64,000 bases of DNA. Source: Streptomyces sp. CA-210063. GTDB taxonomy: Bacteria; Actinomycetota; Actinomycetes; Streptomycetales; Streptomycetaceae. Of the stretch, positions 6,161 to 30,651 are shown in pieces. How positions within the stretch are numbered: the first letter of the stretch is position 1; each line of letters opens with the position of its first letter. The DNA lies in assembly GCF_024612015.1 (NCBI RefSeq), contig NZ_CP102512.1, positions 5,022,001-5,086,000 of the forward strand. Reading direction: 5' to 3'. The position numbers were made by a program, and so were the translations under genes. A model generated the notes under the pieces. That model searched no databases. It saw only the letters and a list, made by a program, of their open reading frames with translations, and had not been told where the DNA came from.

Positions 6161-7180
6161 ATGCGACGCCCCTCGGCCAGACGTCTCGCCGTACCGCTCC
6201 TCGCTCTGGGCCTGCTCGCCCCGGCCCTCGCGGCGTGCAGCGACGAGCCGGCCGACCTGGTCATCTACTCCGGGCGCAATGAGGACCTGGTGGAACCGCT
6301 GCTGGAGAAGCTGGAGAAGCACCTCGACGCCAACGTCGAGGTCCGCTACGGCGACAGCGCCGAACTGGCCGCCCAGATCCTGGAGGAGGGCGACAAGACC
6401 GAGGCCGGTCTGTTCTTCTCGCAGGACGCGGGTGCCCTCGGTGCCCTGTCGAAGGAAGGCGTGCTGACGGCGCTCCCGCAGCCGACGCTCGACAAGGTCG
6501 ACGCGGCCTACCGGGGCGGCGAGAGCGACTGGGTCGGCGTCTCCGGGCGGGTCCGCGTCCTCGCCTACCACCCGGGCAAGGTCTCCACGCCCCCGGACAG
6601 CGTCCACGAGCTGACCGAGCCGGAGTGGAAGGGGAAGATCGGGTACGCGCCGAACAACGCCTCCTTCCAGGCGTTCGTCACCGGTATGCGCGTCCTGGAG
6701 GGCGACGACGCCACCCGCGACTGGCTGAAGGGCCTGAAGGCCAACTCCCCGAAGTCGTACGAGAAGAACACCGAGATCCTCGAAGCCGTGGACTCCGGGG
6801 AGGTCTCGGTCGGGCTCATCAACCACTACTACTGGTACGAGAAGGCCGCGGAGGAGGGCGAGGACAAGCTCACCGCCAAGCTCCACTTCCTGCCCGCCGG
6901 CGACCCGGGCGGTCTGGTCAACGTCGCCGGTGTGGGCCTGCTGAAGGGCGCCGACAAGAAGGAAGCCGACTACGCGCAGCAGGCGGCGGACTTCCTGCTC
7001 GGCGAGGAGGCCCAGACCTACTTCGCCGAGGAGACCAAGGAGTACCCGCTGTCCGCGGGCGTCGCTCCGGCGGAGGGCCTGCCCGCGCTCGACTCGCTTC
7101 AGGCGCCCGAGATCAACCTCGGCGAGCTCGACTCGCTCAAGGAGACGCTGACCATGCTCCAGGAAGCCGGACTGGTCTGA
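6161..7180 (+). CDS. Fe(III) ABC importer substrate-binding lipoprotein (FbpA/AfuA type)
   Basis: This 339-residue lipoprotein has a signal peptide with lipobox LAAC (Cys26), then a type II periplasmic-binding fold starting DLVIYSGRNEDLVEPLLEKL, typical of ferric-iron binding proteins. The adjacent-tyrosine stretch NHYYWYEK near residue 222 corresponds to the Tyr pair that coordinates Fe(III) in FbpA proteins. It would capture ferric iron or a simple ferric chelate outside the cell and deliver it to the permease encoded 14 bp downstream. A consensus promoter with embedded iron box lies upstream, so expression should rise on iron starvation. Confidence 0.9.
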   Translation: MRRPSARRLAVPLLALGLLAPALAACSDEPADLVIYSGRNEDLVEPLLEKLEKHLDANVEVRYGDSAELAAQILEEGDKTEAGLFFSQDAGALGALSKEGVLTALPQPTLDKVDAAYRGGESDWVGVSGRVRVLAYHPGKVSTPPDSVHELTEPEWKGKIGYAPNNASFQAFVTGMRVLEGDDATRDWLKGLKANSPKSYEKNTEILEAVDSGEVSVGLINHYYWYEKAAEEGEDKLTAKLHFLPAGDPGGLVNVAGVGLLKGADKKEADYAQQAADFLLGEEAQTYFAEETKEYPLSAGVAPAEGLPALDSLQAPEINLGELDSLKETLTMLQEAGLV

Positions 7181-7193
7181 GGCCCGGTCAGTC

Positions 7194-8762
7194 ATGAAGA
7201 CGGGCACGTCCGTCAGCCAAAGCCCCGGCACCCGCCCGGCTCCACGGCTCCCGCCCGCCGGGCGGGTCCCCTGGGTGCTGGGCCTTCCGGCGGCGGTCGC
7301 CGCCGTGTTCGCACTGCTTCCACTCGTGTACCTCTGCGTGCGCGCCCTCGAACACGGGCCGGGCTACGCCTGGGACATCGTCACCACCGAGCGCGCCGCG
7401 ATGCTGCTCGGCCGCAGCATCGCCCTCGCCGCGGTCGTCGTGGCGGCCTGCCTGGTCCTCGGCGTCTCACTGGCGTGGCTGACCACCCGGACCGCCCTGC
7501 CGTGGGCGCGCGGCTGGGCGGTGCTGGTGACGCTGCCGCTGGCCGTGCCGAGCTATGTCGCCGCCTTCGCCTGGCTGTCCGCCGCCCCGCGACTGGCCGG
7601 GTTCACCGGGTCCGCCCTGTCACTGATCCTGGTGAGCTTCCCGTACGTCCATCTGCCCGTCGCCGCCGCGCTGCGCCGCACCGACCCCGCCCAGGAGGAA
7701 GCGGCCCGCTCGCTCGGCGTCGGACCGCTGCGCACCTTCTGGCGCGTCACCCTTCCCCAACTGCGCCCGGCGGCGGCCGGTGGCGCGGTCCTGGTGGCGC
7801 TGTACGTGTTCTCCGACTTCGGCGCGGTCTCCCTGATGCGCTACGACACCTTCACCCGAGGCATCTACACCTCCTACCGGGCGTCCTTCGACCGGACCCC
7901 GGCCGCCGCGCTCAGCGTCGTCCTGGTGGTGCTCACCGTGGCCCTGGTCGCCGCCGAGGCGCGCACCAGGGGGAGGGCGGGATACGCGCGGACCGGCACC
8001 GGCACCGCACGCCCGGCGGACCCCGCCCCCCTGGGCAAGTGGCTGGTGCCGTCGCTGAGCTGGTGCGGCGCGGTCACCGCCGCCGCCGTCGCGTTCCCGC
8101 TCGCCACGCTCGGCTACTGGCTGACCGTCGGCAACTCCGCGACCTGGGACCCCGCCCGCCTCACCGAGACCGCCACGGCCACCCTCGGCGTCGCCGCCGC
8201 GGGCGCCGCGCTGACGACCGTGCTCGCCCTGCCCATCGGAGTGATCGCCGCCCGGCACCGGGGCCGGGCCGCCCATCTGCTCGAACAGGCCGCCTACGCG
8301 GGACACGCCCTGCCCGGCATCACCATCGCCCTGTCGCTCGTCTTCTTCGCCGTGCGCTACGCCCACCCGCTGTACCAGGAACTCCCCCTGCTGGTCGGCG
8401 CGTACGCCGTGCTGTTCCTGCCCGTCGCGGTCGCCGCCACGCGCGCCGCCGTACTCCAGGCGCCGCCCGGCCTTGAGGACGTGGCGCGTTCGCTGGGCCG
8501 CAGGCCCTGGCAGGTCGTGCGGGAAGTCACCGTGCCGCTGGCGGCGCCCGGTGTGGCGGCGGGCGCCGCGCTGACCTTCGTGGTGTGCATGAAGGAACTG
8601 CCCGCCACCCTGCTGCTGCGCCCCACCGGCATGGACACGCTGGCCACCCGCCTGTGGACGGAGACCGGAACCGGCTCCTACGCCGCCGCCGCGCCGTACG
8701 CCGCCGCGCTGATCCTGCTGGCCGCGATCCCCTCCTACCTCCTCGGGAGGCACCGCACATGA
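7194..8762 (+). CDS. Fe(III) ABC importer permease (FbpB type, double membrane unit)
   Basis: This 522-residue permease is an internal duplication of the binding-protein-dependent transport fold, with about 12 helices in two halves. Each half carries an EAA-like loop: EEAARSLGVGPLRTFWRVTLP near residue 168 and EDVARSLGRRPWQVVREVTVP near residue 430. Double-length permeases are usual for FbpB-type iron importers. The stop overlaps the ATPase start (ATGA), indicating translational coupling. It belongs to the iron-box operon with the upstream binding protein. Confidence 0.9.
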   Translation: MKTGTSVSQSPGTRPAPRLPPAGRVPWVLGLPAAVAAVFALLPLVYLCVRALEHGPGYAWDIVTTERAAMLLGRSIALAAVVVAACLVLGVSLAWLTTRTALPWARGWAVLVTLPLAVPSYVAAFAWLSAAPRLAGFTGSALSLILVSFPYVHLPVAAALRRTDPAQEEAARSLGVGPLRTFWRVTLPQLRPAAAGGAVLVALYVFSDFGAVSLMRYDTFTRGIYTSYRASFDRTPAAALSVVLVVLTVALVAAEARTRGRAGYARTGTGTARPADPAPLGKWLVPSLSWCGAVTAAAVAFPLATLGYWLTVGNSATWDPARLTETATATLGVAAAGAALTTVLALPIGVIAARHRGRAAHLLEQAAYAGHALPGITIALSLVFFAVRYAHPLYQELPLLVGAYAVLFLPVAVAATRAAVLQAPPGLEDVARSLGRRPWQVVREVTVPLAAPGVAAGAALTFVVCMKELPATLLLRPTGMDTLATRLWTETGTGSYAAAAPYAAALILLAAIPSYLLGRHRT

Positions 8763-10020: not shown

Positions 10021-10668
10021 TCATCCGCGGAGGTAGGTGAGGACGGCGAGGACGCGGCGGTGGCCGTGGCCGTCGAGGTGGAGCTCCAGTTTCTGAAGGA
10101 TGTTGCTGACGTGCTTGTTGACCGCGGCCTCGGTGACGTACAGCTCGCGGGCGATGGCGGCGTTGGCGCGCCCCTCGGCCATCAGGGCGAGGACCTCGCG
10201 CTCTCGGGGGGTGAGGCGTCGCAGGGGATCGCGGCGGCGGTTGAGGAGTTGGCGGACCACCTCGGGATCCACGACCGTCGCGCCCGCGGCGACCTGGGCG
10301 ACCGCGTCGACGAACTCGCTGACGGCGCTGACGCGGTCCTTGAGGAGGTAGCCGACCCCGGTGTCGCTGCCCAGGTCGAGCAGATGCGCGGCGTAGGACT
10401 GCTCGATGTACTGGCTGAGCACCAGGACCGGCAGGCTGGGGTGCTGTCGGCGCAGGGTGACGGCGGCGCGCAGGCCGTCGTCGGTGTTGTCCGGTGGCAT
10501 GCGGACGTCGGTGACGACGATGTCGGGACGGTGTTCCCGAACGGCGGCCGTCAGGGCGTCCGCGTCGCCGACGGCGGCGAGCACCTGGTGACCGAAGCGG
10601 GTGAGCACGCCGACCAGGCCGTCCCGCATCAGCGGGGAGTCCTCGGCGAGTACGACGGTCAGCGGCAC
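10021..10668 (-). CDS. NarL/FixJ-family response regulator
   Basis: This 215-residue protein has a receiver domain with Asp54 in VVTDVRMP as phosphoacceptor, acidic residues in LAEDSP and the conserved Lys in YLLKDRV. A LuxR-type HTH follows (LTPREREVLALMAEGRANAAIA, then VTEAAVNKHVSNILQKL). It overlaps the histidine kinase gene by 10 bp. A perfect 16-bp palindrome in front of the kinase gene, shared with the divergent serine hydrolase gene, is the obvious candidate for its binding site, so the system may control itself and that envelope enzyme. The signal is unknown. Confidence 0.9.
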   Translation of the reverse strand: MPLTVVLAEDSPLMRDGLVGVLTRFGHQVLAAVGDADALTAAVREHRPDIVVTDVRMPPDNTDDGLRAAVTLRRQHPSLPVLVLSQYIEQSYAAHLLDLGSDTGVGYLLKDRVSAVSEFVDAVAQVAAGATVVDPEVVRQLLNRRRDPLRRLTPREREVLALMAEGRANAAIARELYVTEAAVNKHVSNILQKLELHLDGHGHRRVLAVLTYLRG

Positions 10669-11879
10669 GGCAGCTCCACGTGCATCAGGGTGGGCCCGCC
10701 CTGAGGGCTGGATATACGGAGTCTGCCGTCCGCCACGGCGACGCGGTCGGCCAGGCCTACGAGGCCGGTACCCGCCTGCGGTGCGGCACCGCCGATGCCG
10801 TCGTCGCTGACCGACAGAGCCAGCACGTCGGTGTGCAGGCGGGCGTGCACCTCGACCCGGGTTGCCCTGCTGTGCTTGACGGCGTTGGTCAGAGCCTCGG
10901 CGACCACGAAGTACGCCGCGGTCTCCACGGAAAGGGGAAGGCGACGAGGCAGGCGGATGTCGACCGTGACGGGCAACGCGGAGCGCCCCGCCAGGTTCTC
11001 GACCGCGGCGGCCAGACCGTGATCGGTGAGAGCCTTCGGATGGACACCCCGGCTGAGCTCCCGCAGCTCGTCGACAGCGAGCCCGACCTGTTCCTGCGCC
11101 ATGGCGAGCCGGTCGGCCAGCGGTGAGTCCGGCTCGGTGTCCAGGGCGGCCAGCCCGAGCATCACGTTGAGGGAGACCAGCCGCTGCTGCGCCCCGTCGT
11201 GCAGGTCCCGCTCGATCCGGCGCCGCTCCGCGTCGAAGGCATCGACGAGCCGCACCCTGGAGGCCCGTACGTCGGTGAGTTCACGGCCGAGTTCGTTGTC
11301 GCGCGGCGCCAGCATGAGACGTGTGACGGCCGCTCTGGCGCCGGCCCAGGCAGTGATGGTGTACGGCGCGGCGGCGAGCAGGCTGAGACCGACGATCACC
11401 AGCGGCCAGGCCCCGGGGTCGTCGAGGGGCGACATGATCACCAGCACGGGGACGACCAGGGCGAAGCCCAGGACCAGGAAGTCCATCCACCACAGAGCGG
11501 TCGCCGACACCGCCGTGAAGCCCAGCTCACGCCAGGTCGCGGGCTCTCGCAGCCGGGTTCGTACCCATCCGAGAAGTCCCGCGCGTGCGGGGGCCCGGTG
11601 CGGGTCCGGCACCGGGTCGAGGTCCACCAGGCGCAGGCGCCACCGCTCGAAGCGGGTGACGGCGACGCCGGACAGTGCCACACCGAGCAGGATCGGCACG
11701 CCCACCAACACCACCAGCGAGACGACCCCGGCGGCCAGCGCGACCACGAGGACAGCGCCGGCGACGGCACCGAAGACCACTCCGGACAGCAGATAGGCGA
11801 AGGACCGCCAGGGCCAGCTGGAGCCGAGCACCTTCAGCGGGTTCTGACCGAGCGCCTGCCAGGCGGTCCGATGTCGCAT
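10659..11879 (-). CDS. Sensor histidine kinase, HisKA_3/NarX type
   Basis: This 406-residue kinase has an N-terminal membrane sensor region with about four hydrophobic helices (35-75 and 125-180), then the HisKA_3 helix RRRIERDLHDGAQQRL with His227 as phosphorylation site. The ATPase domain has an N box TNAVKHS and the G box DDGIGG...GTGLVGL. The membrane part lacks a large extracellular domain, so it probably senses something in or at the membrane. It partners the overlapping response regulator. The gene starts about 110 bp from the divergent serine hydrolase start. Confidence 0.9.
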   Translation of the reverse strand: MRHRTAWQALGQNPLKVLGSSWPWRSFAYLLSGVVFGAVAGAVLVVALAAGVVSLVVLVGVPILLGVALSGVAVTRFERWRLRLVDLDPVPDPHRAPARAGLLGWVRTRLREPATWRELGFTAVSATALWWMDFLVLGFALVVPVLVIMSPLDDPGAWPLVIVGLSLLAAAPYTITAWAGARAAVTRLMLAPRDNELGRELTDVRASRVRLVDAFDAERRRIERDLHDGAQQRLVSLNVMLGLAALDTEPDSPLADRLAMAQEQVGLAVDELRELSRGVHPKALTDHGLAAAVENLAGRSALPVTVDIRLPRRLPLSVETAAYFVVAEALTNAVKHSRATRVEVHARLHTDVLALSVSDDGIGGAAPQAGTGLVGLADRVAVADGRLRISSPQGGPTLMHVELPCR

Positions 11880-11988: not shown

Positions 11989-13572
11989 ATGAAGCTGATC
12001 ACCGTCCCCACCGGCACGCGTCGCCGACTCGGCACTGTGCTGGCCGCGCTCGGTATCGCGGTCGCGGCCACCGCCGTACCGGCCGTATCGGCCTCCTCGG
12101 CCCCGCGGTCCAACGCCGCCCTGGATCCGGCCTCGATCGACCGATTCGTACGCGACTACCTGGAGCAGACCCGTCTGCCGGGTGCGGTGGTCGCCGTGAC
12201 CAAGGGCGACCGGGTCGTCCACACCGCGGGGTACGGGCACACCGCGTCCGGGCAGGCCATGACGGAGCGGACGCGCCTGCCCGTGGCGTCGCTGTCGAAG
12301 TCCATGACCGCACTCGCCGTCATGCAACTGGTCGAGGCGGGCGAAGTCGACCTGGACCAGCCCGTGCACCGCTACCTGCCCGAGTTCACCCTGGCCGACC
12401 GGCGTTCCCGGGAGATCACCGTCCGGCAGGTCCTGACCCAGACCTCCGGTATGGCCGACTCCGCCTACCCGGATCTGACCCGCGCGCAACCGCACACCCT
12501 CGAAGAGGCCGTCGCCGCGATGCGCGAGGCGCCCCTCGCCACCGCGCCGGGCGCCCGGCACCGCTACCACAACCCCAACTACTTCGTCGCGGCCCGCCTG
12601 GTCGAGGTGGTCAGCGGACAGCCCTTCGCCGACTACCTGTCAGCCGAGCTCTTCAAGCCTCTGCGTATGACGCGCACCGCGTCCGTCGACACGACCGCCG
12701 AGATGCCCGACCGGGCCCGCGGCTACGTCCGCGCCTACGGCACGGTCTTCTCCCGTCCGCACCCCCGCTGGTTCACCGCGGGCGGCCACGGTGTCGTCAC
12801 CACGGCCGACGACCTCTCCCAGTGGCTCATCGCCCAGAACAACCAGGGTGTGTCCGCCGAGGGCCGCCGTATCGCCACCGCACGCACCATCGAGCTCACG
12901 CACACCCCACCGAAGGCGCCGAAGGACACGGACTACGCGATGGGCTGGTGGCGGCACCAGCAGGGGGACGGGCCCGAGCAGATCCAGCACAGCGGCCAAC
13001 TCCTGACCCACAACTCCATGGCCGTCCTGCTGCCCGACAGCGGGATCGGCATCGCGGTCGTCACCAACACCGGCCTGATCTCCGGGGACGACGCCGCCCA
13101 GATCTCGACGGGCCTCGTCGACCTCGCGCGGGGCAAGAACGCCGAGGTGGCGAAGCCCTTCTCGATGACGGCCGACTGGGTCCTGGCGGCACTGACCCTG
13201 CTGGCGGCGGGCCTCGGCATCCGTGGTGTCCTGCGCGCGCCCCGATGGGCGCGGCACACCGCACGGCGACCATGGTGGCGTACGGCCCTGCGGTTGCTGC
13301 CCCAGGCGCTCCCGATCCTCCTCCTCACCCAACTCGCCTCGCTGCTCGGCCTGCTGATGAACCGCTCCGGAACCTTGGCACAGACCACCTACGCCTGGCC
13401 GGCCCTTGTCGTGTGCGCGGCAACCGGGGGGATCGCCTCCATCGCGGTCATCACCGCCCGGGCCCTCGCTCTGGTCCGTCACCGCCGACGCGCCCGGCAT
13501 GGAGCCGGGGGTGACGGGGGTGACGAACCACTCGGCACTCGAGACGGGCATCAGGCCCTCCGCCCCGCCTGA
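11989..13572 (+). CDS. Serine hydrolase (class C beta-lactamase/DD-peptidase family) with membrane tail
   Basis: This 527-residue exported enzyme has a Sec signal peptide, then a beta-lactamase-related domain with SxxK (Ser101-Leu-Ser-Lys104 in VASLSKSM) and YxN (Tyr193-His-Asn195 in RYHNPNY); the third motif is probably in the HSGQL segment near residue 333. Three hydrophobic helices at the C-terminus (about 405-510) anchor it in the membrane with the catalytic domain outside. Family members are DD-carboxypeptidases, esterases or D-amino-acid peptidases; substrate cannot be told. ATG 11989 was chosen as it begins the signal peptide. It is divergent from the two-component operon and may be its target. 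Confidence 0.85.
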   Translation: MKLITVPTGTRRRLGTVLAALGIAVAATAVPAVSASSAPRSNAALDPASIDRFVRDYLEQTRLPGAVVAVTKGDRVVHTAGYGHTASGQAMTERTRLPVASLSKSMTALAVMQLVEAGEVDLDQPVHRYLPEFTLADRRSREITVRQVLTQTSGMADSAYPDLTRAQPHTLEEAVAAMREAPLATAPGARHRYHNPNYFVAARLVEVVSGQPFADYLSAELFKPLRMTRTASVDTTAEMPDRARGYVRAYGTVFSRPHPRWFTAGGHGVVTTADDLSQWLIAQNNQGVSAEGRRIATARTIELTHTPPKAPKDTDYAMGWWRHQQGDGPEQIQHSGQLLTHNSMAVLLPDSGIGIAVVTNTGLISGDDAAQISTGLVDLARGKNAEVAKPFSMTADWVLAALTLLAAGLGIRGVLRAPRWARHTARRPWWRTALRLLPQALPILLLTQLASLLGLLMNRSGTLAQTTYAWPALVVCAATGGIASIAVITARALALVRHRRRARHGAGGDGGDEPLGTRDGHQALRPA

Positions 13573-13738
13573 CGCCGGAACTCCACCACGACGCCCATGC
13601 CGACAGGCGGATGACACCGGTCGGCAGGAGGTCGGCGCGGTCCCGGAAGGGTTCGTGCCGACCTCCGCGCCGGTGAACACCGCGCGCAGCCTGCCGTTCG
13701 ACACGACACCGCCAGGCCGGAGCGAGGTGCGCGGCGGA

Positions 13739-14107
13739 TCAGCTCCGCTGCCGGCAGTAGAGCGCGTCGGGGGTGCGCGACGAGCCCACCCGGGCCGTGA
13801 AGGCGATCCCGGCCGCGTACTCGTCGTTGGCGCACTGGCCCTTGTGGTGGCCGTGCACGAAGTCGCCGCCCTTGGGAGCCGAACCCCTGTTGTCGCCGCG
13901 GTCGAACCAGACGGTGCGGCCGTTCGTGCCGACGATCGAGCCGGGCGGGGCGGCTACGCACAGGGCGGCGGAGACGGCCGCGCCACGGACGCTGTAGCCG
14001 GTCAGGAAGTGGCCGTCGCGGCACTGGAGTTTGGTGTATCCGGTCGCCCAGTCCCGGCCCGGCGTGACATGCCGCTCGTCGACGATCACCTCGTGCCCGC
14101 GGTTCAT
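13739..14107 (-). CDS. 122-aa four-cysteine protein coupled to the lanthipeptide transporter gene
   Basis: The start codon shares one base with the transporter stop (TGATG), so this is the last gene of the lanthipeptide operon. An in-frame stop lies just upstream, so the protein cannot be longer. It has no signal peptide or membrane helix. Four regularly placed Cys occur (KLQCRDG, ALCVAAP, GQCANDEY, ALYCR), with repeated motifs FLTGYSVRG and YAAGIAFTARVG. It resembles a disulphide-type module I have seen at the C-terminus of secreted actinomycete proteins, so a cytoplasmic copy is odd. It could be an immunity or processing factor, a substrate of the C39 transporter, or a leftover of a larger gene. 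The 165 bp after it hold nothing recognisable. Confidence 0.55.
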   Translation of the reverse strand: MNRGHEVIVDERHVTPGRDWATGYTKLQCRDGHFLTGYSVRGAAVSAALCVAAPPGSIVGTNGRTVWFDRGDNRGSAPKGGDFVHGHHKGQCANDEYAAGIAFTARVGSSRTPDALYCRQRS

Positions 14108-16344
14108 CAGTGGTCAGGGGCACCGGGGAGCGGCTGGGCCTCGTCGCCCGACTCGAGTTGCTGGCGGACGAGTCTCGCGTAGTGACCGGCTCGCCGAAGC
14201 AGGTCGTGGTGGCTTCCCCGCTCCACGATGGTTCCCTGGTCGAGCACCAGGATGACGTCCGCGTCGCGGATCGTGCTCAGGCGATGGGCGATGATGATCT
14301 GGGTGCAGGCCAGGGTGCGCAGGTTCTCCGCGACTCTCCGCTCGGTCTCGACGTCCAGATGACTCGTGGCCTCGTCGAGCATGATGATGGCCGGTCTGTG
14401 CGCGATCGCCCGTGCGATGGCCAGCCGCTGTCGCTGACCGCCGGACAGGGCGCTCCCGCCCTCGGAGACGAAGGTGTCGTACTGCATCGGCATGGCCATG
14501 ATGTCGTCGTGGATGGCGGCCAACTCGGCGGCCTCGACCACTCGCGCGCGCTCGATCGACGGGTTACTGAGCGCGATGTTCGACAGTATCGACCCGCTGA
14601 ACAGGGCGCTCTCCTGCAGGACGACGCCGAACTGACGTCTCAGCTCCTGCCAGGTGACGTTCCGCAGCGAGACGCCGTCGTAGAAGATGTCCCCCTGTGT
14701 GGGGAGGTACAGCCCGAGCAGCAGTTTCCCCAGCGTGCTCTTGCCCGAGCCGGAGAGGCCGACGATCGCGATCCTCTCTCCGGGGCGTGCGGTCAGGTCG
14801 ACGTCATGCAGTACCTGGGGGGCCGCCTTCGCATACCGGAAACCGACCCCGTCCAGCCGCAGGTGCCCCGACAGCCGCGGCGTCGGCCGGGACACCTGCC
14901 GCGGCTGCTCCGGGTCGGCCTCGGTCACGTCACGTATGCGGTCGAGGTTGGCACCGACGAGCTGGAACTGCTGGGCGCTGTCCACGAGCGTGCTGAGCGG
15001 GGCGAAGAAAGCGGCGGCCAGCGCCAGGAGGGCCACCATCGTGCCGATGCTGATCGATCCGTCGAGGACCTGAGTGGCGCCCACCCACAGCAGCCCGAGC
15101 TGTCCGAAGAGCGGCAGTGAGCCCAGGACCGAGGCCACGGTGCCGGAGACGTAGTTGTGGCGCAGCGAGATGTTGAGGTGGTCGAAGAACAGGTTCGACC
15201 AGCGGTCGAAGGCCTGTGCTTCGGCGCCGGCCGCCTTCAGCGTGCCGATGCCGACGATCGCCTCGCCCAGATACCCCTGGGATTTTCCGAACGCGGTCAG
15301 CTCCCGGCCCGACAACGTGCGGATCATGCCCTTGGTGAGCAGGAGCACGATGGCGCCCAGCATGCCGACGCCCAGGGTGAGCAGGCCGAACGGCGGGGAC
15401 TGCCAGAAGAGGAGGAGCAGGTAGAGCATCACCAGCCCGCTGTCCATGACGCTGGACAGGAGCTGGTTGCTCAGCAGGTCGCGCAGCATGGCGTTGCTGG
15501 CCGCCCGGGCCAGCAGGTCACCGGTCGACCGCTGCTGGAAGTACTTGTAGGGCAGTGCGAGCAGGTGCTCGACGAAGCCGAGCATCATGCTCACGTCGAT
15601 GCGGGCCCGGAGAAACACCAGCAGCCATTCCCGCAGCAGCGTCGCGACGGTCTGGGCGAGAAAGGTCGCGACGATGCCGATCCCGAGGACCGGCAGGACG
15701 TTGCTCATCCGGTAGGGGAGGACCTGGTCCAGCACCACCGCGGTCAGCACCGGCAGGACCAGCCCGAGCAGGATCAGCAGCAGGGAGACCCCGAGCAGTT
15801 GCAGTGAGGTTCCCGGCGACTGCCGGACGAACTGCCCGACGTACCCCCGGAAGGTCGCGCGAGGCGGGGCGACCGCACGACGCTCGAACGTGGCGCCCGG
15901 TTCGAGGAGCATGACCACCCCGGTGAACCCGGCGTCGAACTCGTCCTCCGTCAGCCGGCAGCGTCCCCTGGCGGGATCCACCACATCGACGTGTTTGCTC
16001 TTCCACCGTTCGACGACGAGGAAGTGTGTGAACTCCCAGTGGACGATCGCGGGGAGGCGGACGAAACGGAGATCGTTCCGTGGCAGCGAGAGCGTCCTGA
16101 CCCGCATGCCGTGGTCGCGGGCGGTCTTGACGATCTCCAGTGCGGAGAGGCCGTCGCGGCCGACGCCGACGCGCGCCCGCAGCTCCGCCAAGGAGGTCCC
16201 GGAGCCGAAGTAGTTGAGGATCATCGTCAGGCAGGCGAGGCCGCATTCCATCTCGCTCAGCTGTCTGACGTCGGGAACCCTCCTGCGGTGCCTCTTGCGG
16301 GTCGGCGATCGGTGGTTGCCGAGCCAGGAGAACGGGTTGATCAC
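14107..16344 (-). CDS. lanT: LanT-type C39 peptidase/ABC exporter
   Basis: This 745-residue bifunctional exporter begins with a C39 peptidase domain: Cys34 in SEMECGLACLT, His107 in THFLVVE and Asp123 in DVVDPARG form the catalytic set that cuts after double-Gly leaders. About six transmembrane helices follow (roughly 165-440), then an ATPase with GLSGSGKST, LSGGQRQR and IIMLDEAT. It would remove the precursor leader after Gly-Gly and export the mature lanthipeptide. The GTG start at 16344 overlaps the upstream gene's stop (GTGA), and its own stop overlaps the 122-aa gene. Confidence 0.92.
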   Translation of the reverse strand: MINPFSWLGNHRSPTRKRHRRRVPDVRQLSEMECGLACLTMILNYFGSGTSLAELRARVGVGRDGLSALEIVKTARDHGMRVRTLSLPRNDLRFVRLPAIVHWEFTHFLVVERWKSKHVDVVDPARGRCRLTEDEFDAGFTGVVMLLEPGATFERRAVAPPRATFRGYVGQFVRQSPGTSLQLLGVSLLLILLGLVLPVLTAVVLDQVLPYRMSNVLPVLGIGIVATFLAQTVATLLREWLLVFLRARIDVSMMLGFVEHLLALPYKYFQQRSTGDLLARAASNAMLRDLLSNQLLSSVMDSGLVMLYLLLLFWQSPPFGLLTLGVGMLGAIVLLLTKGMIRTLSGRELTAFGKSQGYLGEAIVGIGTLKAAGAEAQAFDRWSNLFFDHLNISLRHNYVSGTVASVLGSLPLFGQLGLLWVGATQVLDGSISIGTMVALLALAAAFFAPLSTLVDSAQQFQLVGANLDRIRDVTEADPEQPRQVSRPTPRLSGHLRLDGVGFRYAKAAPQVLHDVDLTARPGERIAIVGLSGSGKSTLGKLLLGLYLPTQGDIFYDGVSLRNVTWQELRRQFGVVLQESALFSGSILSNIALSNPSIERARVVEAAELAAIHDDIMAMPMQYDTFVSEGGSALSGGQRQRLAIARAIAHRPAIIMLDEATSHLDVETERRVAENLRTLACTQIIIAHRLSTIRDADVILVLDQGTIVERGSHHDLLRRAGHYARLVRQQLESGDEAQPLPGAPDH

Positions 16345-16916
16345 GAGGCACCGCCGGCGGACGAGCCCAGTCCGGGGAAGAGCGTCAGAAGCCGCTGTGA
16401 CCCGGCCTCGACCCGGGCGGTCAGCGAGCTCCCGTCGTAGGCGGCCGGCGGCAGCGACTGTTCGAGCCGTACGATCACGACGGTCCAGGGCTGCCGAACG
16501 GTGCCGGCCGCGGGCTCGAATCCATACTCGGCTCGTGCCGTGTCCGGGCCGATCATGCCGGGCTCGACCCTGCTGACAGCACCTGACGCGGGCAGGTCCG
16601 AGGAGCCGATCCGGGCGTGGACCGGCTGGCCGGCGCGCACGTGCGCGGATTGATCGGCCGGCAGGAACAGTGCGGCATCCGTCGTTCCGCCGCCGGGTCC
16701 GGCCCGGGCGCCGTCCGAGAGGATCGTGCCCTGGGCGCCGACGTAGGCCGGGACCCGTACGGACCAGGCCACTGCCGCGGTGGCGATCAGCACGGCCAGC
16801 AGCAGCCAGAGGCAGACGATGACCGGCCGCCGCGTGAGGCGGGGCACGATGTCCTTCGCCGTACCTCGCTGGTAGGCCTGGACGGCGGTCTCCCGGAAGA
16901 TCACACGTTGGGCCAC
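16341..16916 (-). CDS. HlyD-like bacteriocin secretion accessory protein
   Basis: This 191-residue protein has one N-terminal transmembrane helix (PVIVCLWLLLAVLIATAAVAW, about 31-51) and an extracytoplasmic beta-rich part with short HlyD-like motifs (QGTILSDG, VRAGQPVHARIGSSD, SRVEPGMI). The region between the two halves is very short, without the long coiled coil of Gram-negative HlyD proteins, as expected for a partner of a C39 exporter in a Gram-positive. GTG 16916 is the start, 18 bp after LanM, and its stop overlaps the exporter gene. Its likely role is assisting lanthipeptide export. Confidence 0.7.
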   Translation of the reverse strand: MAQRVIFRETAVQAYQRGTAKDIVPRLTRRPVIVCLWLLLAVLIATAAVAWSVRVPAYVGAQGTILSDGARAGPGGGTTDAALFLPADQSAHVRAGQPVHARIGSSDLPASGAVSRVEPGMIGPDTARAEYGFEPAAGTVRQPWTVVIVRLEQSLPPAAYDGSSLTARVEAGSQRLLTLFPGLGSSAGGAS

Positions 16917-16934
16917 GGCCGATGATCCTTTCTC

Positions 16935-19900
16935 TCAGCTCTGGGCCTGCCACCGTGGAGGAGCCAGGAGAAGAAGGGACGGCACCTTGTCGGGCTCGGC
17001 CAGTCTGAGCAGCTCGTACCCGATCCCCGCCAGTCCGGTCATGAGTCCGGGCGTCTCCACCCCGAGCGGCACTCCCGTCAGGAAGCCATCGGCCTCGATA
17101 CTCGCCACGACCGACGCCGTCGCTCGTTCCAGAGCGTCATGGTCTTCGGATCTGTCGAGGATCCGCGTTGCCGTCAGGAGAAGCTCGAGGTTGCCGAGCG
17201 CGCCGTGACAGAGCGAGTGGCCCATGTCGAAGCCGTACTGTTCCGTGGCGCTCAGGGCGATGTCGATCTCCTCCCGTACCGTCGCGTCGGCCAGCAGATC
17301 CAGGGCGGCGAGGCGTGCCAGGCCGATCCCCGGGGCGCCGTGGCACCAGGCCACCATGCTCTTTCGAGGTGGCCCGGCGGCCGGGTCGAACGGGTCGGCC
17401 TCGATGCTCCGGGGTGGGAAGACACGCAGGTCGGCCCAGTTGTTCAGGTCGGGGACGAAGAGGCTGCGGTCGTAGTCGAGAGCGCTGAGGGCAGCCTGGT
17501 GAAAGCGGTTGTCGCCGCTGCGGGCGGCCAACCGCAGAAGGCTCAACGTGATGCCGGCGGTGCCGTGCGAGAACCCGCCCAGCGGCGGTTGGTCGTCGAG
17601 CGTGGTCCAGGCGATCCCTCGATGCACGGGCTGCGCCGTGGCCAGGAGCCGCTCGCCGCAGCGGATCGCCACGTCCAAGGTCCGTGGGGAGGGACGGACC
17701 GTGTGCAGGCTGAGCAGCACGAGGAGGCACCCGGCCGAACCGTGGACGACATCCAGCGACAGGTCCCTGGAGATGAGGGGTGGCAGTCTCTCGACCAGTT
17801 CGGCCGCCTCGTCGAGGAGGTCCCGCTCCGCCCACAGGACGCCCAGGCTGGTGAGGGCGTACACGACCGAGGCCAGGCCGTCGAACGCTCCGACCGGCGG
17901 AGGAGATCCGCTCGTATCCGGCTGCTCCCGGAGCCACTCCCGCGCTTGGGTGCGCGCCGATGTCAGTGCCCGGCGTGCGAGGAGCGTGGCGGAGGGCTCG
18001 CCGGTGATCGCCCCGAGGTGGCCCAGGAAGAGTGCGATTCCGCTGGTCCCGGAATAGAGGTCGCTGCCCGAAGGGAAGAGGCCCCAGGTCGATTCGTCCA
18101 GAGGGCCCACGCCGAGCCAGTACGCGCCGCCTTCGTTCTGTCCGCCTTCGTTCTGTCCGCCTTCGTTCTGTCCGCCCTGGTTCTGTCCGGCTTCGTTCCG
18201 CAGAGACAGCTCGTCGAGACGCCTCCCGACGGACCTCGCCAGTGCCAGCAACTGTTCGCGCGCCACCCGCCGGGGCGCCAGGGAAGGCCGGCTCACCGAC
18301 GGAGCCTGTGCCGGCCGGCTGATCCTGTCCTCGGAATCCATCAGCAGCGTGGCCAGCGACGCCTTGATGATCCAGCTCTGCTTGGCCAGGTCGTCATCAC
18401 CGAGCCGTTCCACTCGTTGCCGCACCAGATCGAGGCTGGGCGCGTCGAGGAAGTCCTCGAAACGCTCCCCCTCCGCGGTGAGGACCGCCCGACTGCCCGG
18501 GCTGGTGTGGAACAGCGGGATGTCACCGTGCCACAGATCCCGCCGCTCCACCGGGATGAGGGGAACGAGACCGGGACGCTGTGCCGCCTCGATCCACAGG
18601 TGGTCGAAGAAGCGATCACGTTCGAGCGCGTCACGCAGCAGATCCGGATGGAAGCTCTCGTACCACAGGAGGCCGTACACGTTCGTCGAGCGGAGGACGA
18701 CGCGTGTCTCGTCACATGCGAAGCGCGGGAGCTGTTCCGCCAGCAGAGCCGCCTTGTTCTCGCAGATCAGACGGTACATTCCGGTGAAACCCGCGAGGAC
18801 GGCGTCCTGGTACTTCAAGACCTCGACGTCCTGGTCACCCAGACGGGGCCGGTTCTCGCTCACGGGTAGCTCGGCACGCCGTCGGCCCACCCGCATCTCA
18901 TCCGTCCCCAGTCTTTCCCAGCTGACAAGCCGATGCGGGTTCGTCTGCCCCGGTTGCCCGCCCAGGCCGCTCATGTCCACGCCGATGGAGTCCCGGTCGG
19001 ACCACACGCGCCGCGGCAACAACCCGACCTGCCACACGGAACGATCCAGCTCTCCCACGCCAAGGTTCACGAGGGCCGGTTCCTCGGCGTGGACGTGAGG
19101 GTGGAACAGGGCTTCCAGGTCCACGAGCATCGGATACTCACCGGCAGCGAGCAGGTTCTCGTTGTGCAGGTCGGCGGCGTCCAGGACGTACAACAGCGCC
19201 AGGTAGCTTCCCTGACGCTCGTAGAAACGCACGACCTCCTCCTCGCAGGTGCAGGGGGCCGCGTCGACGAACTCCGACCAGCCGTGGTCGCCGCGGTCGA
19301 CCACCTTCAGCGGCCGCAGACCGGGCTCAGCCCCCCGGTGGTTCAACCACGACAGCAACTCCTGGAAGTGCGCGTCCACACCCAGCGACCTCGGCTTGTA
19401 CAGCAGCTTCATCCCCGAACCGAACCGCAGCAGCAGCACACTGCGGCCCCGGCGATGCCGGTCGCCCTTTTCGGCCTCCACGTCGACCAGCGGTCCAGGA
19501 TCGCCGCCCGGGGCGAAGGTCGTGCGGATGGACTGCCAGTCCGCGCACAGATGCGTCAGGAACTCGTACAGGTAGTCGGCCCACTGTTCCGTCGTGAGCA
19601 CCAGTTGGCGTGCGAGCACGGGGTACTTGGCGAGAAGGGCCACGATCGAGCCTTCCTGCCGAAGTCGCCGGATGAAGTCTTCGAAGCGTTCCTCCGCTGT
19701 CTCGCCTCTCAAGTGTCCTTCCAAGCGGGCGATATGCAACTCGAGCAGGAGCGGTTTGCTGAGCTGGAAGAGGATGAGGGGTGCGAGATTGGCCAGGAAC
19801 ACGCCTGGGAGCATTTTCGTTTCGAAGGGAAGGAACTCGGATTCTCCGCGCAGTCCACGGACCCTTTCCCGGAGACGATCGCAAAAGTGTCCCAGAAGAG

Positions 19901-20306
19901 GGCTGATCGCCAACAGGCTTCCAGCGAGGGGGTGATCGGCCTCGGTCCTCTCCAGCAGAGGCGCCAAATCGTCGGAGGGATCGGGATGCGCGAACGCTTG
20001 CCGGAGAGTAACCAGCCAGTCGGGGGTGGCCTGGATGCGGGCCTTCAGACTTTCCGCGGGCTCCGCCAGCAGAGCCAGCAGATCACTTTCCGAGAGAGAG
20101 TCCAGAGCCAGCCGCTGAGCGAACAACGGCCGCCGCCCGAAGGGCGTCTGACTCTTCCAGTCTTCCAGACGACCTGACGCTTCTTCAAGAAAAAGGTCCG
20201 CGCCGAAGGACATCTCCGTCGGGCGGGCGCTCCGTGTGCCATCGCGTTCGAGGAGGGAAAAGGCCCGGTACCACTCGGGAGCCTGCCACACCTCTTCCGC
20301 TCTCAT
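16935..20306 (-). CDS. lanM: Class II lanthipeptide synthetase LanM
   Basis: This 1123-residue enzyme has a DUF4135 dehydratase half with LLYKPRSLGVDAHFQELL (near 303) and DLHNENLLAAG...LVDLEALF (near 379), and a LanC-like cyclase half with GFSHGTAGI (near 910), WCHGAPG (near 987) and SLCHGALGN (near 1030). The last two supply the Cys, Cys and His zinc ligands, so the cyclase looks intact. It would phosphorylate and dehydrate Ser/Thr of the precursor and add Cys thiols to form (methyl)lanthionines. The halves are joined by a QNEGG pentapeptide repeat. The precursor gene lies 187 bp upstream with a strong hairpin between. An AGGA site precedes ATG 20306. Confidence 0.95.
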   Translation of the reverse strand: MRAEEVWQAPEWYRAFSLLERDGTRSARPTEMSFGADLFLEEASGRLEDWKSQTPFGRRPLFAQRLALDSLSESDLLALLAEPAESLKARIQATPDWLVTLRQAFAHPDPSDDLAPLLERTEADHPLAGSLLAISPLLGHFCDRLRERVRGLRGESEFLPFETKMLPGVFLANLAPLILFQLSKPLLLELHIARLEGHLRGETAEERFEDFIRRLRQEGSIVALLAKYPVLARQLVLTTEQWADYLYEFLTHLCADWQSIRTTFAPGGDPGPLVDVEAEKGDRHRRGRSVLLLRFGSGMKLLYKPRSLGVDAHFQELLSWLNHRGAEPGLRPLKVVDRGDHGWSEFVDAAPCTCEEEVVRFYERQGSYLALLYVLDAADLHNENLLAAGEYPMLVDLEALFHPHVHAEEPALVNLGVGELDRSVWQVGLLPRRVWSDRDSIGVDMSGLGGQPGQTNPHRLVSWERLGTDEMRVGRRRAELPVSENRPRLGDQDVEVLKYQDAVLAGFTGMYRLICENKAALLAEQLPRFACDETRVVLRSTNVYGLLWYESFHPDLLRDALERDRFFDHLWIEAAQRPGLVPLIPVERRDLWHGDIPLFHTSPGSRAVLTAEGERFEDFLDAPSLDLVRQRVERLGDDDLAKQSWIIKASLATLLMDSEDRISRPAQAPSVSRPSLAPRRVAREQLLALARSVGRRLDELSLRNEAGQNQGGQNEGGQNEGGQNEGGAYWLGVGPLDESTWGLFPSGSDLYSGTSGIALFLGHLGAITGEPSATLLARRALTSARTQAREWLREQPDTSGSPPPVGAFDGLASVVYALTSLGVLWAERDLLDEAAELVERLPPLISRDLSLDVVHGSAGCLLVLLSLHTVRPSPRTLDVAIRCGERLLATAQPVHRGIAWTTLDDQPPLGGFSHGTAGITLSLLRLAARSGDNRFHQAALSALDYDRSLFVPDLNNWADLRVFPPRSIEADPFDPAAGPPRKSMVAWCHGAPGIGLARLAALDLLADATVREEIDIALSATEQYGFDMGHSLCHGALGNLELLLTATRILDRSEDHDALERATASVVASIEADGFLTGVPLGVETPGLMTGLAGIGYELLRLAEPDKVPSLLLLAPPRWQAQS
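18126..18200 (-). repeat. 15-bp tandem repeat within lanM
   Basis: Five 15-bp units (consensus tccgccttcgttctg; the three at 18126-18170 are nearly identical and the last two diverged) encode QNEGG-like pentapeptides in the linker between the dehydratase and cyclase halves of LanM. Such an array can change copy number by slippage without breaking frame. Confidence 0.8.
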
Positions 20307-20344
20307 GTCCTGGCCGTCCCCTCGATTTTCCCCCTCTGCTCAGC

Positions 20345-20393
20345 CAACTCGGCGAGGGCTGCTGGACAGCGCCTAGCAGCCTTCGCCTAGTTG
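20345..20393 (-). terminator. Long intercistronic hairpin between precursor and lanM (attenuator)
   Basis: A 19-position stem (20345-20363 with 20375-20393) with two mismatches closes an 11-nt loop in the gap between lanA and lanM. Such hairpins commonly act as partial terminators or 3'-end stabilisers, giving much more precursor than modifying enzyme. No T-run follows, as is usual in streptomycetes. Confidence 0.7.
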
Positions 20394-20493
20394 CGTTGGT
20401 TCCTCGTTGCGTCGATTCCTGACCTCCGGCGTCAGGGCTTCGCCTCGTCGCCGTACGTGCCTCGGCGGCGGTTCTCCCCCCGGCACTTCGCCG

Positions 20494-20724
20494 TCAGCAG
20501 TTGCGGCAGGGGTTTGCCGAGTTGCCGCGAGTCGAGACGCAGGTCTTCGTGTTACAGCCGAAGCTGTTTCCGCTCTGGGCGCCGCCCAGAACCTGCCCCA
20601 GCTCGGCATCGGTGAGCTCTATGACGCCCGCCGGGTTGTCCGGCAGGTCGGCCAGCTCCGGGCCGCTCAGGCTGTCACGGTACTTCGGGTCCTCCCAGGC
20701 CCGGACAATCTTGCGGAGGCTCAT
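20494..20724 (-). CDS. lanA: Class II lanthipeptide precursor, mersacidin-type leader
   Basis: This 76-residue peptide has a leader starting MSLRKIVRAWEDPKYRDSLS with LPDNPAGVIELTDAELGQV and ending in Gly47-Gly48, the pattern of the mersacidin/lichenicidin leader family cut by C39 peptidases. The predicted 28-residue core begins AQSGNSFGCNTK and ends NPCRNC, with four Cys (core 9, 14, 25, 28) and seven Ser/Thr, enough for up to four (methyl)lanthionine rings. I do not recognise the core as any characterised lanthipeptide. A GGGAGAG ribosome site precedes ATG 20724. LanM, export and C39 functions follow on the same strand, so the substrate assignment is secure. Confidence 0.9.
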   Translation of the reverse strand: MSLRKIVRAWEDPKYRDSLSGPELADLPDNPAGVIELTDAELGQVLGGAQSGNSFGCNTKTCVSTRGNSANPCRNC

Positions 20725-21144
20725 GAGGCTCTCCCTGTCTTCCTCGTATTGCCTTTTCGACCGTGGGATTCACCACCGTCGGGAGACGCTGTGCCGCGCC
20801 CCTGAATGACGGAAGTCATGTGGGCCTCAGGAAACCACCTGATTGCCCATCAGAACCTCTGGCGGAATCGGCAGTGAATGCACCGCCCGATGAACGATGG
20901 GCGCGGAACGCGGATGCCACGAGAAGTGCATCGGTCGTTTGATCCCCGGTACGGGGTAGGGGGGTATACACCCACTCCGAGTATCGGGCGTTCGCCCGAA
21001 CTCCTACAAATATCAAGCCTTACTCGCGCCTCCCCAGCGTGTCAAGACGGCACCGCACCCGGGTGCTTGACCGGCGGATACGGCAACCGTTCCACGATGT
21101 GGACGTTGCCTTTCGGAGCCCCAGGGAACGGCGGCCGAACGCAG
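20725..21144. other. Upstream region of the lanthipeptide operon, no gene seen
   Basis: About 420 bp, less GC-rich than its surroundings in places, separate the precursor start from the terminator at 21145-21181. I see no open reading frame worth calling and no convincing -35/-10 pair. It contains a TCGGGCG-TT-CGCCCGA palindrome (20984-20999). The promoter for the operon must lie here. Confidence 0.5.
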
Positions 21145-21181
21145 GATTGCCGTGCCCGGCCAAAGGCGGGGCACGGCAATC
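21145..21181 (-). terminator. Strong terminator hairpin
   Basis: A perfect 13-bp stem (GATTGCCGTGCCC, 21145-21157, with 21169-21181) closes an 11-nt loop just downstream of the interrupted secreted-protein gene on the minus strand. It isolates the lanthipeptide operon from upstream transcription. Confidence 0.75.
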
Positions 21182-21237
21182 GCTTTCACGCTCTCGAGGG
21201 AGTCAGGAGCGTTTTCCGGTGGGCATCCGCCACCGGT

Positions 21238-21837
21238 TTACGGGAGGTCCGCCCCGCGGTCCGTCCAGCTGCCGCAGTCACCGATTTCGTCGCCCATCTC
21301 GCGGGTGCAGACGATGCCGAACACCTCGCCTTCCGTGGTGATGATGTCGACGTTGATGTCGGGGTCCTGGACGTCGATGGACACCCCACAGGCGTTACCG
21401 GGGTAGCCGGGCTCGCCCGAGAGGTTCCGCCAGTAGATGTTCGTCTCGGGACCCTCGTCCTCTCCGACGAACGTCTGGCCCTCCGCGGTCGCCGCGTAGA
21501 AGGCGTTGCCACCCTCCTGAAGAACGGTGTCGATCTCGAAGCAGCCGTCACCGCCGTTCGGCGGCACAGGCGTGCCGTCGTGCTTGTGGTGCTTACCGGG
21601 CTTGAAGAACTCATCGATCCACGAGCTGGGGTCGTCCGTCGAGGGCAGGGATGCCCGCTCGGTGGACACAACGGCCGACGCGGAGTGCGCGTTCAACCCG
21701 AGGACCTACGCCTGGGCGGGTGCGGCACCCGCCCAGGCGACCAGCGTGACGGTGGCCAGCGAGGCGACGCCGCCGAGTGCCAGACCGGCCCGTCGCGCAC
21801 TCGGTGACGCCCGGTCAGCGTGCCGGGCAGCCCCCAC
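21238..21837 (-). pseudogene. Secreted protein interrupted by an in-frame TAG right after its signal peptide
   Basis: From GTG 21837 the frame encodes a 43-residue signal peptide with an Arg pair, a hydrophobic core (LALGGVASLATVTLVAW) and an AXA site (APAQA), followed at once by TAG (21708-21706). The same frame then runs open for more than 150 codons to 21238, encoding an acidic protein with segments FFKPGKHHKHDG, CFEIDTVLQEGGN, YPGNACGVSIDV and IGDCGSW and four Cys. A TTG at 21696 could start the second part, but without its export signal. Either this is a recent nonsense mutation or sequencing error, or the codon is read through. I do not recognise the family. A tandem repeat abuts the start. 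Confidence 0.55.
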
Positions 21838-21848
21838 AGCCGATCAGC

Positions 21849-21908
21849 TCGCTGTCAGCCGGTCCCGCGCGAAACCACTCGCCGTCAGCCGATCCCGCGC
21901 GAGACCAC
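21849..21908. repeat. Imperfect 30-bp tandem duplication
   Basis: Two adjacent 30-bp copies (21849-21878 and 21879-21908; four differences) cover the last codons and stop of the upstream secreted-protein gene. The second copy holds the real stop; the first is a diverged duplicate of the gene's 3' end. Confidence 0.75.
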
Positions 21909-23228
21909 CAGACCGCACGCGCCCGTCGTGCTGTCACAGGCGACGTTTCCCGCGGCCAGTACGGCGCGCGTGCCGGGAACGCCGTCGACGCCGAGGAGTG
22001 AACTGCCCACGGTGGTGGAGATCTCCTCCGGAAGTTCCTCCTCGGTCCAGGAGGCGCCGTCCCAGCGGGAGAGCACCGCGTGGTTGCCGCCCGCGGGCCA
22101 GCCCGCGATCCACACCGCTCCCGAGCCGTCCACGCCCGCGGCGTTCACCTCTTCGATGTCGGGCGTGGGGACCGGCTGCCATGTGCGGCCGTCCCATCGC
22201 GCGGCGAGCAGCGCGCCGGGCACCCCGGGGTCGTTGGTCTTGCCGAACACATGGACCGTGCCGCGCTTCGTCGTCACGATGCGGTTGGCCACCCAGCCGG
22301 CGTCGTACTCGTCCGGGACGGGGATGGTGTCCACCGTCCAGCGCCGGCCGTCGAAGTGGTAGAGCAGGGGCGTCGCGGTGCCGTCGGTGCCGGACTCGGC
22401 GGTGACCCATACGTCGTCGGGGCCGGTGCCGGTGATGTCCCAGGGCTCCACCGGGCTGCCGTCCGGCGCCGGAGGAAGGGCCGTCCGCCGCCATGTGCGG
22501 CCGTCCCACTGCTCCAGTTGACCGGTGTACGCGCCGGTCACCGGGTTCCAGTCCACGGTGGTCAGCCATACGGAGTCCCGGCCCACCGAGGTCAGTTCAC
22601 CGATGAAGCGGATCCAGCCCTCGGCGGGTGCCGGACGCTGCACCTGCTTCCATCGGGTGCCGTCCCAGTGCTGGAGCACGATCGGGCTGGCCGTCGCGGG
22701 ACGCGCGGCGCCGTCGCGGGACCGGGCCGACGGGGAGTCGGGCAGACGGTCCGCGAGGCGGTCCGGCAGCCGGGCCGAGGCGGCGGAGGGGATCTCCACG
22801 TCGGTGTATGTCCCGGCGGCCCAGACGTCGTCGGGGCCGGAGGCGGCCACCGCCTCCAACTGCGCGGGCCTGCCTCCGGTCGCCGCGAGCCGGACGTCGC
22901 TCCACCGCTTGCCGTCCCAGCGTTTGGCCAGCGGGACCGCCGAGAAGGAGTCATCCGTCTTCCTGCCGACCGCCCAGGCGTCGGTCCTGTTCCTCGCGTC
23001 GACATCCATGAAGTCGATCGAAGCCGCCTCGGAGAGCGGTAACGCGAGCTTCCAGGGCGTCTGGGCCCGTGCCTTCGTCGCGGCCTGGGCCGCCGTCCCG
23101 GTCTGCGCCTGGGTTTTCGTCCCGGTCTGCGCCTGGGCCGCCCACGGGATGAGGGCGAGGGCGCAGGCCGCGAGTGCGGTGGCCACGCGGATGCCGCGTG
23201 AAGTGGAGCCTTGTGCGGGGGTTCTCAT
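21885..23228 (-). CDS. Secreted beta-propeller-like repeat protein
   Basis: This 447-residue protein has a signal peptide ending AAQAQ, then a Gln/Thr/Ala-rich stretch with a QTGTKTQAQTGT repeat, then repeated blades of the pattern 'DDVWAxG ... WDGxxW' (for example PDDVWAAGTYT, LQHWDGTRWKQV, LEQWDGRTWRR, PDDVWVTAES, LSRWDGASWTEE). This is the repeat style of kelch/galactose-oxidase-like propellers. No catalytic residues are obvious; a binding or scaffold role outside the cell is likely. An AAGGAG site precedes ATG 23228. It follows the sigma/CU044_5270 pair on the same strand after a gap of about 100 bp. Confidence 0.75.
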   Translation of the reverse strand: MRTPAQGSTSRGIRVATALAACALALIPWAAQAQTGTKTQAQTGTAAQAATKARAQTPWKLALPLSEAASIDFMDVDARNRTDAWAVGRKTDDSFSAVPLAKRWDGKRWSDVRLAATGGRPAQLEAVAASGPDDVWAAGTYTDVEIPSAASARLPDRLADRLPDSPSARSRDGAARPATASPIVLQHWDGTRWKQVQRPAPAEGWIRFIGELTSVGRDSVWLTTVDWNPVTGAYTGQLEQWDGRTWRRTALPPAPDGSPVEPWDITGTGPDDVWVTAESGTDGTATPLLYHFDGRRWTVDTIPVPDEYDAGWVANRIVTTKRGTVHVFGKTNDPGVPGALLAARWDGRTWQPVPTPDIEEVNAAGVDGSGAVWIAGWPAGGNHAVLSRWDGASWTEEELPEEISTTVGSSLLGVDGVPGTRAVLAAGNVACDSTTGACGLVVSRGIG

Positions 23229-26536: not shown

Positions 26537-27451
26537 CTAGCCGAAGCGGCCGGTGATGTAGTCCTCCGTGCGCTGGTCGGCGGGGTTCTCGAAGATCTTC
26601 TCGGTGATGTCGTACTCGACCAGGCGGCCGTGTCGTACGCCCTGTTCGTCGATGTCCGAGGTGTAGAAGGCGGTGTAGTCGGAGATGCGGGCCGCCTGCT
26701 GCATGTTGTGGGTGACGATGACGATGGTGAAGTCGGTCGCCAGGTCCGCCATCAGGTCCTCGATGCGGGCGGTGGCGATGGGGTCGAGCGACGAGCAGGG
26801 CTCGTCCATCAGGATCACCTCGGGTTTGACGGCGATGGCCCGCGCGATGCACAGCCGCTGCTGCTGCCCGCCCGACAGCGCCAGCGCGCTCGCCTTCAGC
26901 TTGTCCTTGACCTCGTCCCACAGCGCGGCGCCTGTCAGTGCCTCTTCGACGAGGTCGTCCATGGTGCCCTTCATGCCGTTCACCCGCGGCCCGTAGGCGA
27001 TGTTGTCGTAGATCGACTTGGGGAACGGGTTGGGTTTCTGGAAGACCATGCCGATACGGCGGCGCACCTCGATCGGGTCGATCACCGGGTCGTAGAGGTT
27101 CTCCCCCAGGTAGACGACCTTGCCGGTGACGCGGGCGCCGGGGATGAGGTCGTTCATCCGGTTGAAGCAGCGGATCACCGTGGACTTGCCGCAGCCGGAC
27201 GGGCCGATCATCGCGGTGATCTGGCGACGGCCGATGGTCAGGTTCACATCACGGACGGCCTGGTGGTCGCCGTACCAGATGTCCAGGTCGGAGACGTGGA
27301 ACACCGGATCGCCCAGGGAGGGTACGGGCCTGCCGGGACGGCGGCGGTCACCGATCGAAAGGCCCAGGGAGCGGGCCTCGTCGTGAGAGCCGGAGGGGAT
27401 GCTGTCGTCGGTCATGTCATCGGTCATGTCGTCGGTCATGTCGTCGGTCAT
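26537..27451 (-). CDS. pstB: Phosphate ABC importer ATPase PstB
   Basis: This ATPase of about 304 residues has Walker [10 protein letters not shown], the PstB-typical [17 protein letters not shown] and [19 protein letters not shown], the signature LSGGQQQR, Walker B VILMDEP and H-loop VTHNMQQA. It powers high-affinity phosphate uptake with PstA and PstC. The N-terminus carries four MTDD repeats from a 12-bp tandem array, so any of four ATGs could be used. It is last in pstSCAB, 4 bp after pstA. Confidence 0.95.
27404..27451 (-). repeat. Four 12-bp tandem repeats at the pstB start
   Basis: Four near-identical units of gtcgtcggtcat encode MTDD four times on the minus strand, offering four in-frame start codons at 12-bp intervals. 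Confidence 0.85.
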
Positions 27452-27455
27452 GGGA

Positions 27456-30300: not shown

Positions 30301-30651
30301 GTCCGCCGGAGTTACCCGGCCGTGTGGATGAGGTGCGCAGTGCGCGCCGTTCTGACCCTTGGACCGATCCGACCACGCGTGAACACGTGATGCGCAAGAC
30401 GCCGTCGAACGGTTGATCGTCGCGGAAGGATCATCTGAACTGCCGAATCGCCACTCTCCGTCGGCGCACCTCGATGAAGGGGTGGGCGGTCCACCCGAAA
30501 GCGGAACGCATGGAGCGCCCACAGCGTCGCTCATCGATGGCCGCCCGTCCGGTAGGCGACGCGCAGCGCGCCCGAATACCGCCCGGTCGGCGCTCACCTG
30601 CGGCTACGGAAAGGGTCGACGGGCGCGCGGCATCATGCGCCCGGACCGCCG
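30301..30651. other. pstS upstream region, no gene seen
   Basis: This 350-bp gap separates pstS from the DM13 gene end. It must hold the pst promoter, but I see no clear -35/-10. Three GTTC elements on the pst coding strand (near 30384, 30410, 30440) are not in phase as PhoP direct repeats. A small GGGCGC-N10-GCGCCC hairpin (30621-30642) may end the DM13 transcript. Confidence 0.45.

Follow-up and report, generated by a model that had tools for sequence, protein, structure and literature searches.

A putative class II lanthipeptide operon

Within the window, by which we mean the whole stretch of 64,000 nucleotides from Streptomyces sp. CA-210063 that was analyzed (source genome 10.86 Mb, single contig), a precursor gene, a gene for the synthetase LanM, a gene for a small HlyD-like protein and a gene for an exporter with a C39 peptidase domain follow one another on the minus strand (Table 1). 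All four reading frames are intact, no TTA codon occurs in any of them, and the block from 14100 to 21060 has a G+C content of 67.4%, against 70.8% for the whole window. A search of positions 13500-22000 for known RNA families returned two matches, both far under the gathering score.

Table 1. Features of the putative operon and its borders (window coordinates)
Feature	Position	Strand	Description
Upstream promoter/5' untranslated region	20725..21060	-	Candidate -35 TTGACA at 21045-21040; -10-like TAAGGC at 21022-21017
lanA, precursor, 76 aa	20494..20724	-	48-aa mersacidin-type leader ending GG and 28-aa core AQSGNSFGCNTKTCVSTRGNSANPCRNC; TIGR03898
Stem-loop in lanA-lanM gap	20351..20387	-	17 possible pairs; conserved lowest-energy hairpin with compensatory changes
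lanM, class II lanthipeptide synthetase, 1123 aa	16935..20306	-	DUF4135 dehydratase and LanC-like cyclase; TIGR03897
Small HlyD/membrane-fusion-like accessory protein, 191 aa	16341..16916	-	GTG start; assigned from fold of predicted model
C39 peptidase/ABC exporter, 745 aa	14107..16344	-	GTG start; Peptidase_C39, ABC_membrane, ABC_tran
C-terminal remnant of glycoside hydrolase, 122 aa	13739..14107	-	Outside operon; long frames elsewhere; junction at about 14100

The precursor scored 65.6 bits against TIGR03898 in an NCBIfam scan, where the curated cut-off is 23.5, and its leader ends in GG, which bears out an earlier note on this DNA that had described a 76-residue precursor with a mersacidin-type leader and a Gly-Gly site. 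Against the lacticin 481 family (NF040664) it reached only 15.6 bits, below the cut-off of 46. A lanM-adjacent precursor with a leader, a double-glycine site and a core containing Ser, Thr and Cys is what marks a class II lanthipeptide cluster, and all of these were found.

LanM scored 906.1 bits against TIGR03897 (cut-off 304), and both its dehydratase and its cyclase domain were recovered by Pfam (PF13575, 420.7 bits; PF05147, 207.9 bits). The motifs WCHGA (from residue 987) and LCHGAL (from residue 1032) are present, so that the enzyme, with its open frame, appears intact, as had been claimed. Among solved structures, it aligns in two stretches, covering the dehydratase and cyclase parts, to LicM2 (6st5, 410 bits), a lichenicidin synthetase, while the best stretch shared with CylM (5dzt) is the dehydratase part (190 bits). 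The window LanM is diverged from both and differs from them in having (QNEGG)n inserted between the dehydratase and the cyclase domain. This insert is encoded by a tandem repeat at 18127-18198 (minus strand; 15-base unit, 4.8 copies) and is absent from the LanM of S. piniterrae.

The peptidase residues C34, H107 and D123 of the exporter were found and its Peptidase_C39 domain was matched, in agreement with the earlier description. The exporter resembles those of the NHLP/NHLM type in its whole-length match to TIGR03796 (NHLM_micro_ABC1) and in the HlyD-like gene adjoining it, but at 652.5 bits it stays under the family cut-off of 853.3, and its partner counts only 191 aa. For this partner, the designation HlyD-like holds for the predicted fold and not for the sequence: at E 0.1 neither Pfam nor NCBIfam models matched the accessory protein, and six members scanned gave no HlyD family, whereas its predicted model, of middling confidence, contains membrane-fusion-protein beta domains. 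Judging from the ranges skipped in the structure alignment, the modeled protein seems to be without the long hairpin of MacA/EmrA-type adaptors. The search for accessory homologues scored 8000 candidates only; precursor and accessory clusters had a same-sized longest contig in 10 of 22 precursor clusters (contigs of at least 5 kb), the window's included, a proxy for co-occurrence that says nothing of adjacency on whole chromosomes. A PHROGs scan of three proteins gave no match.

Relatives and distribution

Five relative LanM loci were compared with the window, three from Streptomyces and two from Amycolatopsis, with LanM identities of 61-85%; two of the stretches used below, L044 and L045, are longer versions of L023 and L021. 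In all six loci, lanA, lanM, the accessory gene and the exporter occur together, and no further gene among the flank frames compared is common to them. The family models, the catalytic residues and this conservation support the class II operon, with up to four rings in its product, that had been proposed earlier. The other flank matches are distant similarities among ABC transporters and, in the window and L045, pairs of a kinase and a regulator. In particular, the six loci have neither a LanFEG set nor a second precursor nor a regulator in common. Other ABC genes lie near L022 and L025 and are not shared by all six, and those of the window are, according to Pfam, a binding-protein importer (26537-30597) and another importer (6161-8762), not LanFEG; the reported lack of such immunity genes stands.

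The operon is uncommon, as judged from sequence searches. The exact GCNTKTC codons were found in 2 of the 391 other genomes sampled from the genus, by a search that misses variants such as the GCNTRTC of L022. In a draw of 295 genomes, 14, among them the window's own, had a precursor match at E up to 0.01; apart from the window's own, only G238 matched over almost the full length (85%), and the remaining matches are weaker and mostly cover the leader. One class-level pattern match, L029, was discarded, as it does not fall within any open frame for a precursor. A plasmid origin was likewise rejected, because plasmid matches to the precursor (4 of 72,556 records) reach residue 62 at most and are all below 60% identity.

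Two class I-type pairs of LanB and LanC flank the window, one about 59 kb before it (G000:C1 4958888-4962918) and one about 37 kb after it (5123027-5127039), so that a stretch of less than 170 kb holds three lanthipeptide-type loci. A partial LanC-like match is also present in a frame of 952 aa at 601091, and two adjacent frames at the end of the window (61309-63824) resemble type II polyketide ketosynthases by eye.

The operon border and the 122-aa frame

The earlier note had extended the operon to 13739 by counting a coupled 122-aa gene as a member. Indeed, the ATG of this frame overlaps the TGA of the exporter by one base, which would allow translational coupling, and in a five-gene operon the protein might serve in immunity or tailoring. 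Several observations make such a unit most improbable. The frame has 31 homologues, whose names include glycoside hydrolase and endoglucanase, and its matches in 16 of 60 other genomes fall within open frames of 655-1405 aa in 15 cases and in a 42-aa frame in one. In the flanks compared (only about 0.9 kb for L024), none of the five relative operons has a match beside it. Moreover, similarity to hydrolase genes starts at 14100 (L041, L042) or 14095 (L043), just where the similarity to the 3' ends of the exporters breaks off (14097 in L044, 14099 in L045, 14104 in L022); in the diverged Amycolatopsis loci L024 and L025 the exporter similarity breaks off earlier, at 14144 and 14132. With the exporter stop codon at 14107-14109, the operon therefore ends no more than a few bases beyond that stop, abutting the tail of a hydrolase gene, and the sharp junction at 14095-14107 is probably a recombination scar. 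In other words, the four class II genes of the original proposal are retained, but the operon ends at about 14100 rather than 13739, and together with its upstream region it would span about 14100 to 21060. Insertion of the operon into a single hydrolase gene, with both halves left, was also considered and rejected, because only the C-terminal piece of a hydrolase is clearly recognizable in the window; other hydrolase matches there are no better than E 0.006, and one of these covers the same place.

Upstream region and intergenic hairpin

Ahead of lanA, similarity is continuous to L044 from 21060 and patchy in L045 and L022, and none was found past 20743 in the Amycolatopsis loci L024 and L025. 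In the alignment, TTGACA and GAGTAAGGCT are invariant in all four Streptomyces loci, which suggests a candidate promoter about 290 bases ahead of lanA; a consensus scanner called no promoter in the upstream region. As for a dedicated regulator, its reported absence holds insofar as none is common to the relatives, but the window does contain a NarL-type kinase/regulator pair at 10021-11879, behind a convergent gene, which shares only 30-36% identity with such genes near L045.

The lowest-energy 40-base hairpin of the lanA-lanM gap was found in all six loci, at -25.4 to -36.7 kcal/mol and 41-79 bases ahead of lanM, the LanM starts in L022, L024 and L025 being set from tblastn matches. Across the six sequences, which were excised around the lowest-energy stem in a way that favors it, 89.2% of cells are paired, against 30-51% for slid partners. 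Changes on both sides occur in 6 of the 17 pairs; two of these six lie in the inner helix and four in the outer stem, part of which does not pair in some loci. Four of five covariation measures lie above nearly all shuffles; the further-pair-types measure does not (414 of 500 shuffles as high). There is no T tract, and a scanner found no terminator there on the minus strand. By analogy with lantibiotic operons, the hairpin probably serves to hold the mRNA of the precursor above that of the enzyme.

A conserved core outside the known lipid II motifs

A search of 5.8 billion proteins gave 113 precursor homologues; its candidates were chosen by shared 5-residue words, so that conserved cores are favored. 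QSGxSxGC is present in 97 of the 113 and the strict pattern QSGxSxGCNTKTC...RGNS...C...C in 91. The 16 sequences that are without QSGxSxGC (P0077, P0078, P0100-P0113) are altered or have mainly the leader in common, and P0072 has the first core half without RGNS. Among the 97, the leader is long in 76 and short (about 25 residues) in 21; the short-leader members (P0079-P0099) keep the core and have a leader without the RAWEDPEYR part.

Residues were counted in the 81 homologues with a 28-residue core, measured from the leader end without use of the core pattern. Q2, S3, G4, S6, G8, C9, N10 and T13 are identical in all 81, and T11, K12 and C14 are each kept in 80 (one T11S, one K12R, one C14G). 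Further on, S/T17 and S21 are kept in 74 and C25 and C28 in 71; seven cores are out of register past C14, with two residues missing there. Position 16 is Ser or Thr in only 62 of the 81 and is therefore probably dispensable for a conserved ring. Over the six loci, uncorrected pN/pS was 0.33 in the leader and 0.23 in residues 1-21 of the core.

None of the 97 family cores, that of the window included, contains the mersacidin-type lipid II motif [ST]x[ST]xEC, which a passage of PMC7268733 gives as TxTxEC, and the nisin-type lipid II motif is equally absent from all 97. Five core words were not found in the searchable open-licence literature, and dmxorosin is presented as a class I lanthipeptide in a passage of PMC11855644. 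The core had earlier been called unrecognized, which holds in that no description turned up in the open-licence literature; it is no orphan, however, given the strict pattern in 91 homologues. These precursors form a distinct, conserved family of class II lanthipeptides, whose leader is of the mersacidin type but whose core is different, and which is apparently undescribed in that literature.

Proposed pathway and alternative readings

By its genes, the system is of an ordinary kind, and a four-gene class II lanthipeptide operon is very probably the right explanation. LanM would bind the mersacidin-type leader, phosphorylate and then eliminate Ser and Thr residues of the 28-residue core, and close thioether rings with Cys9, Cys14, Cys25 and Cys28. 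The C39 exporter would cleave after Gly47-Gly48 and export the product, aided by the small membrane-fusion-like protein. These steps of dehydration, ring formation, leader removal and export are inferred. The calculated mass of the unmodified core is 2876.217 Da, and loss of four, five or six waters would bring it to 2804.175, 2786.164 or 2768.154 Da. A ring pattern of S6-C9, T11-C14, S21-C25 and T17-C28 is possible, and we offer it only tentatively. The product may have antibacterial or signaling activity. The TIGR03898 leader with GG, LanM and the C39 exporter recall the class II lantibiotics mersacidin and lichenicidin, from which the family differs by the missing [ST]x[ST]xEC motif and by having neither a shared LanFEG set nor a shared second precursor. 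The shared unit includes no immunity gene, which is unusual for a potent lantibiotic and weighs against the four-gene explanation.

Two other readings were weighed against the four-gene operon. That the locus is decayed or silent and yields no product could be argued from the gene fragment abutting the operon and from its patchy presence, as seen in the codon search of the genus sample, but with four intact frames, the catalytic residues in place and pN/pS well below 1, we regard this as very unlikely. The best solved relative of LanM by sequence being LicM2, the product could also be one of the two peptides of a two-component lantibiotic such as lichenicidin or roseocin; yet a search of the whole genome for this leader type gave a single TIGR03898 match at E up to 1, and the six loci share no second precursor, which renders such a pair highly improbable.

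Returning to the four-gene class II operon, a bolder proposal, which we consider rather unlikely, is that the near-invariant QSGxSxGCNTKTC half constitutes a new target-binding structure in a widespread actinobacterial family, unlike the lipid II motifs of nisin and mersacidin, and that shared immunity genes are lacking because the product has a role other than that of an antibiotic, for instance in signaling or development. For cloning, the stretch to take would be that within the corrected boundaries, about 14100 to 21060, which holds the four genes and the upstream region. The core is near-invariant across Streptomyces, Amycolatopsis and a large number of database sequences, it carries no known lipid II motif, and no immunity genes are shared; this combination makes the family a tractable candidate for a lanthipeptide that acts on a different target or serves a non-antibiotic role.
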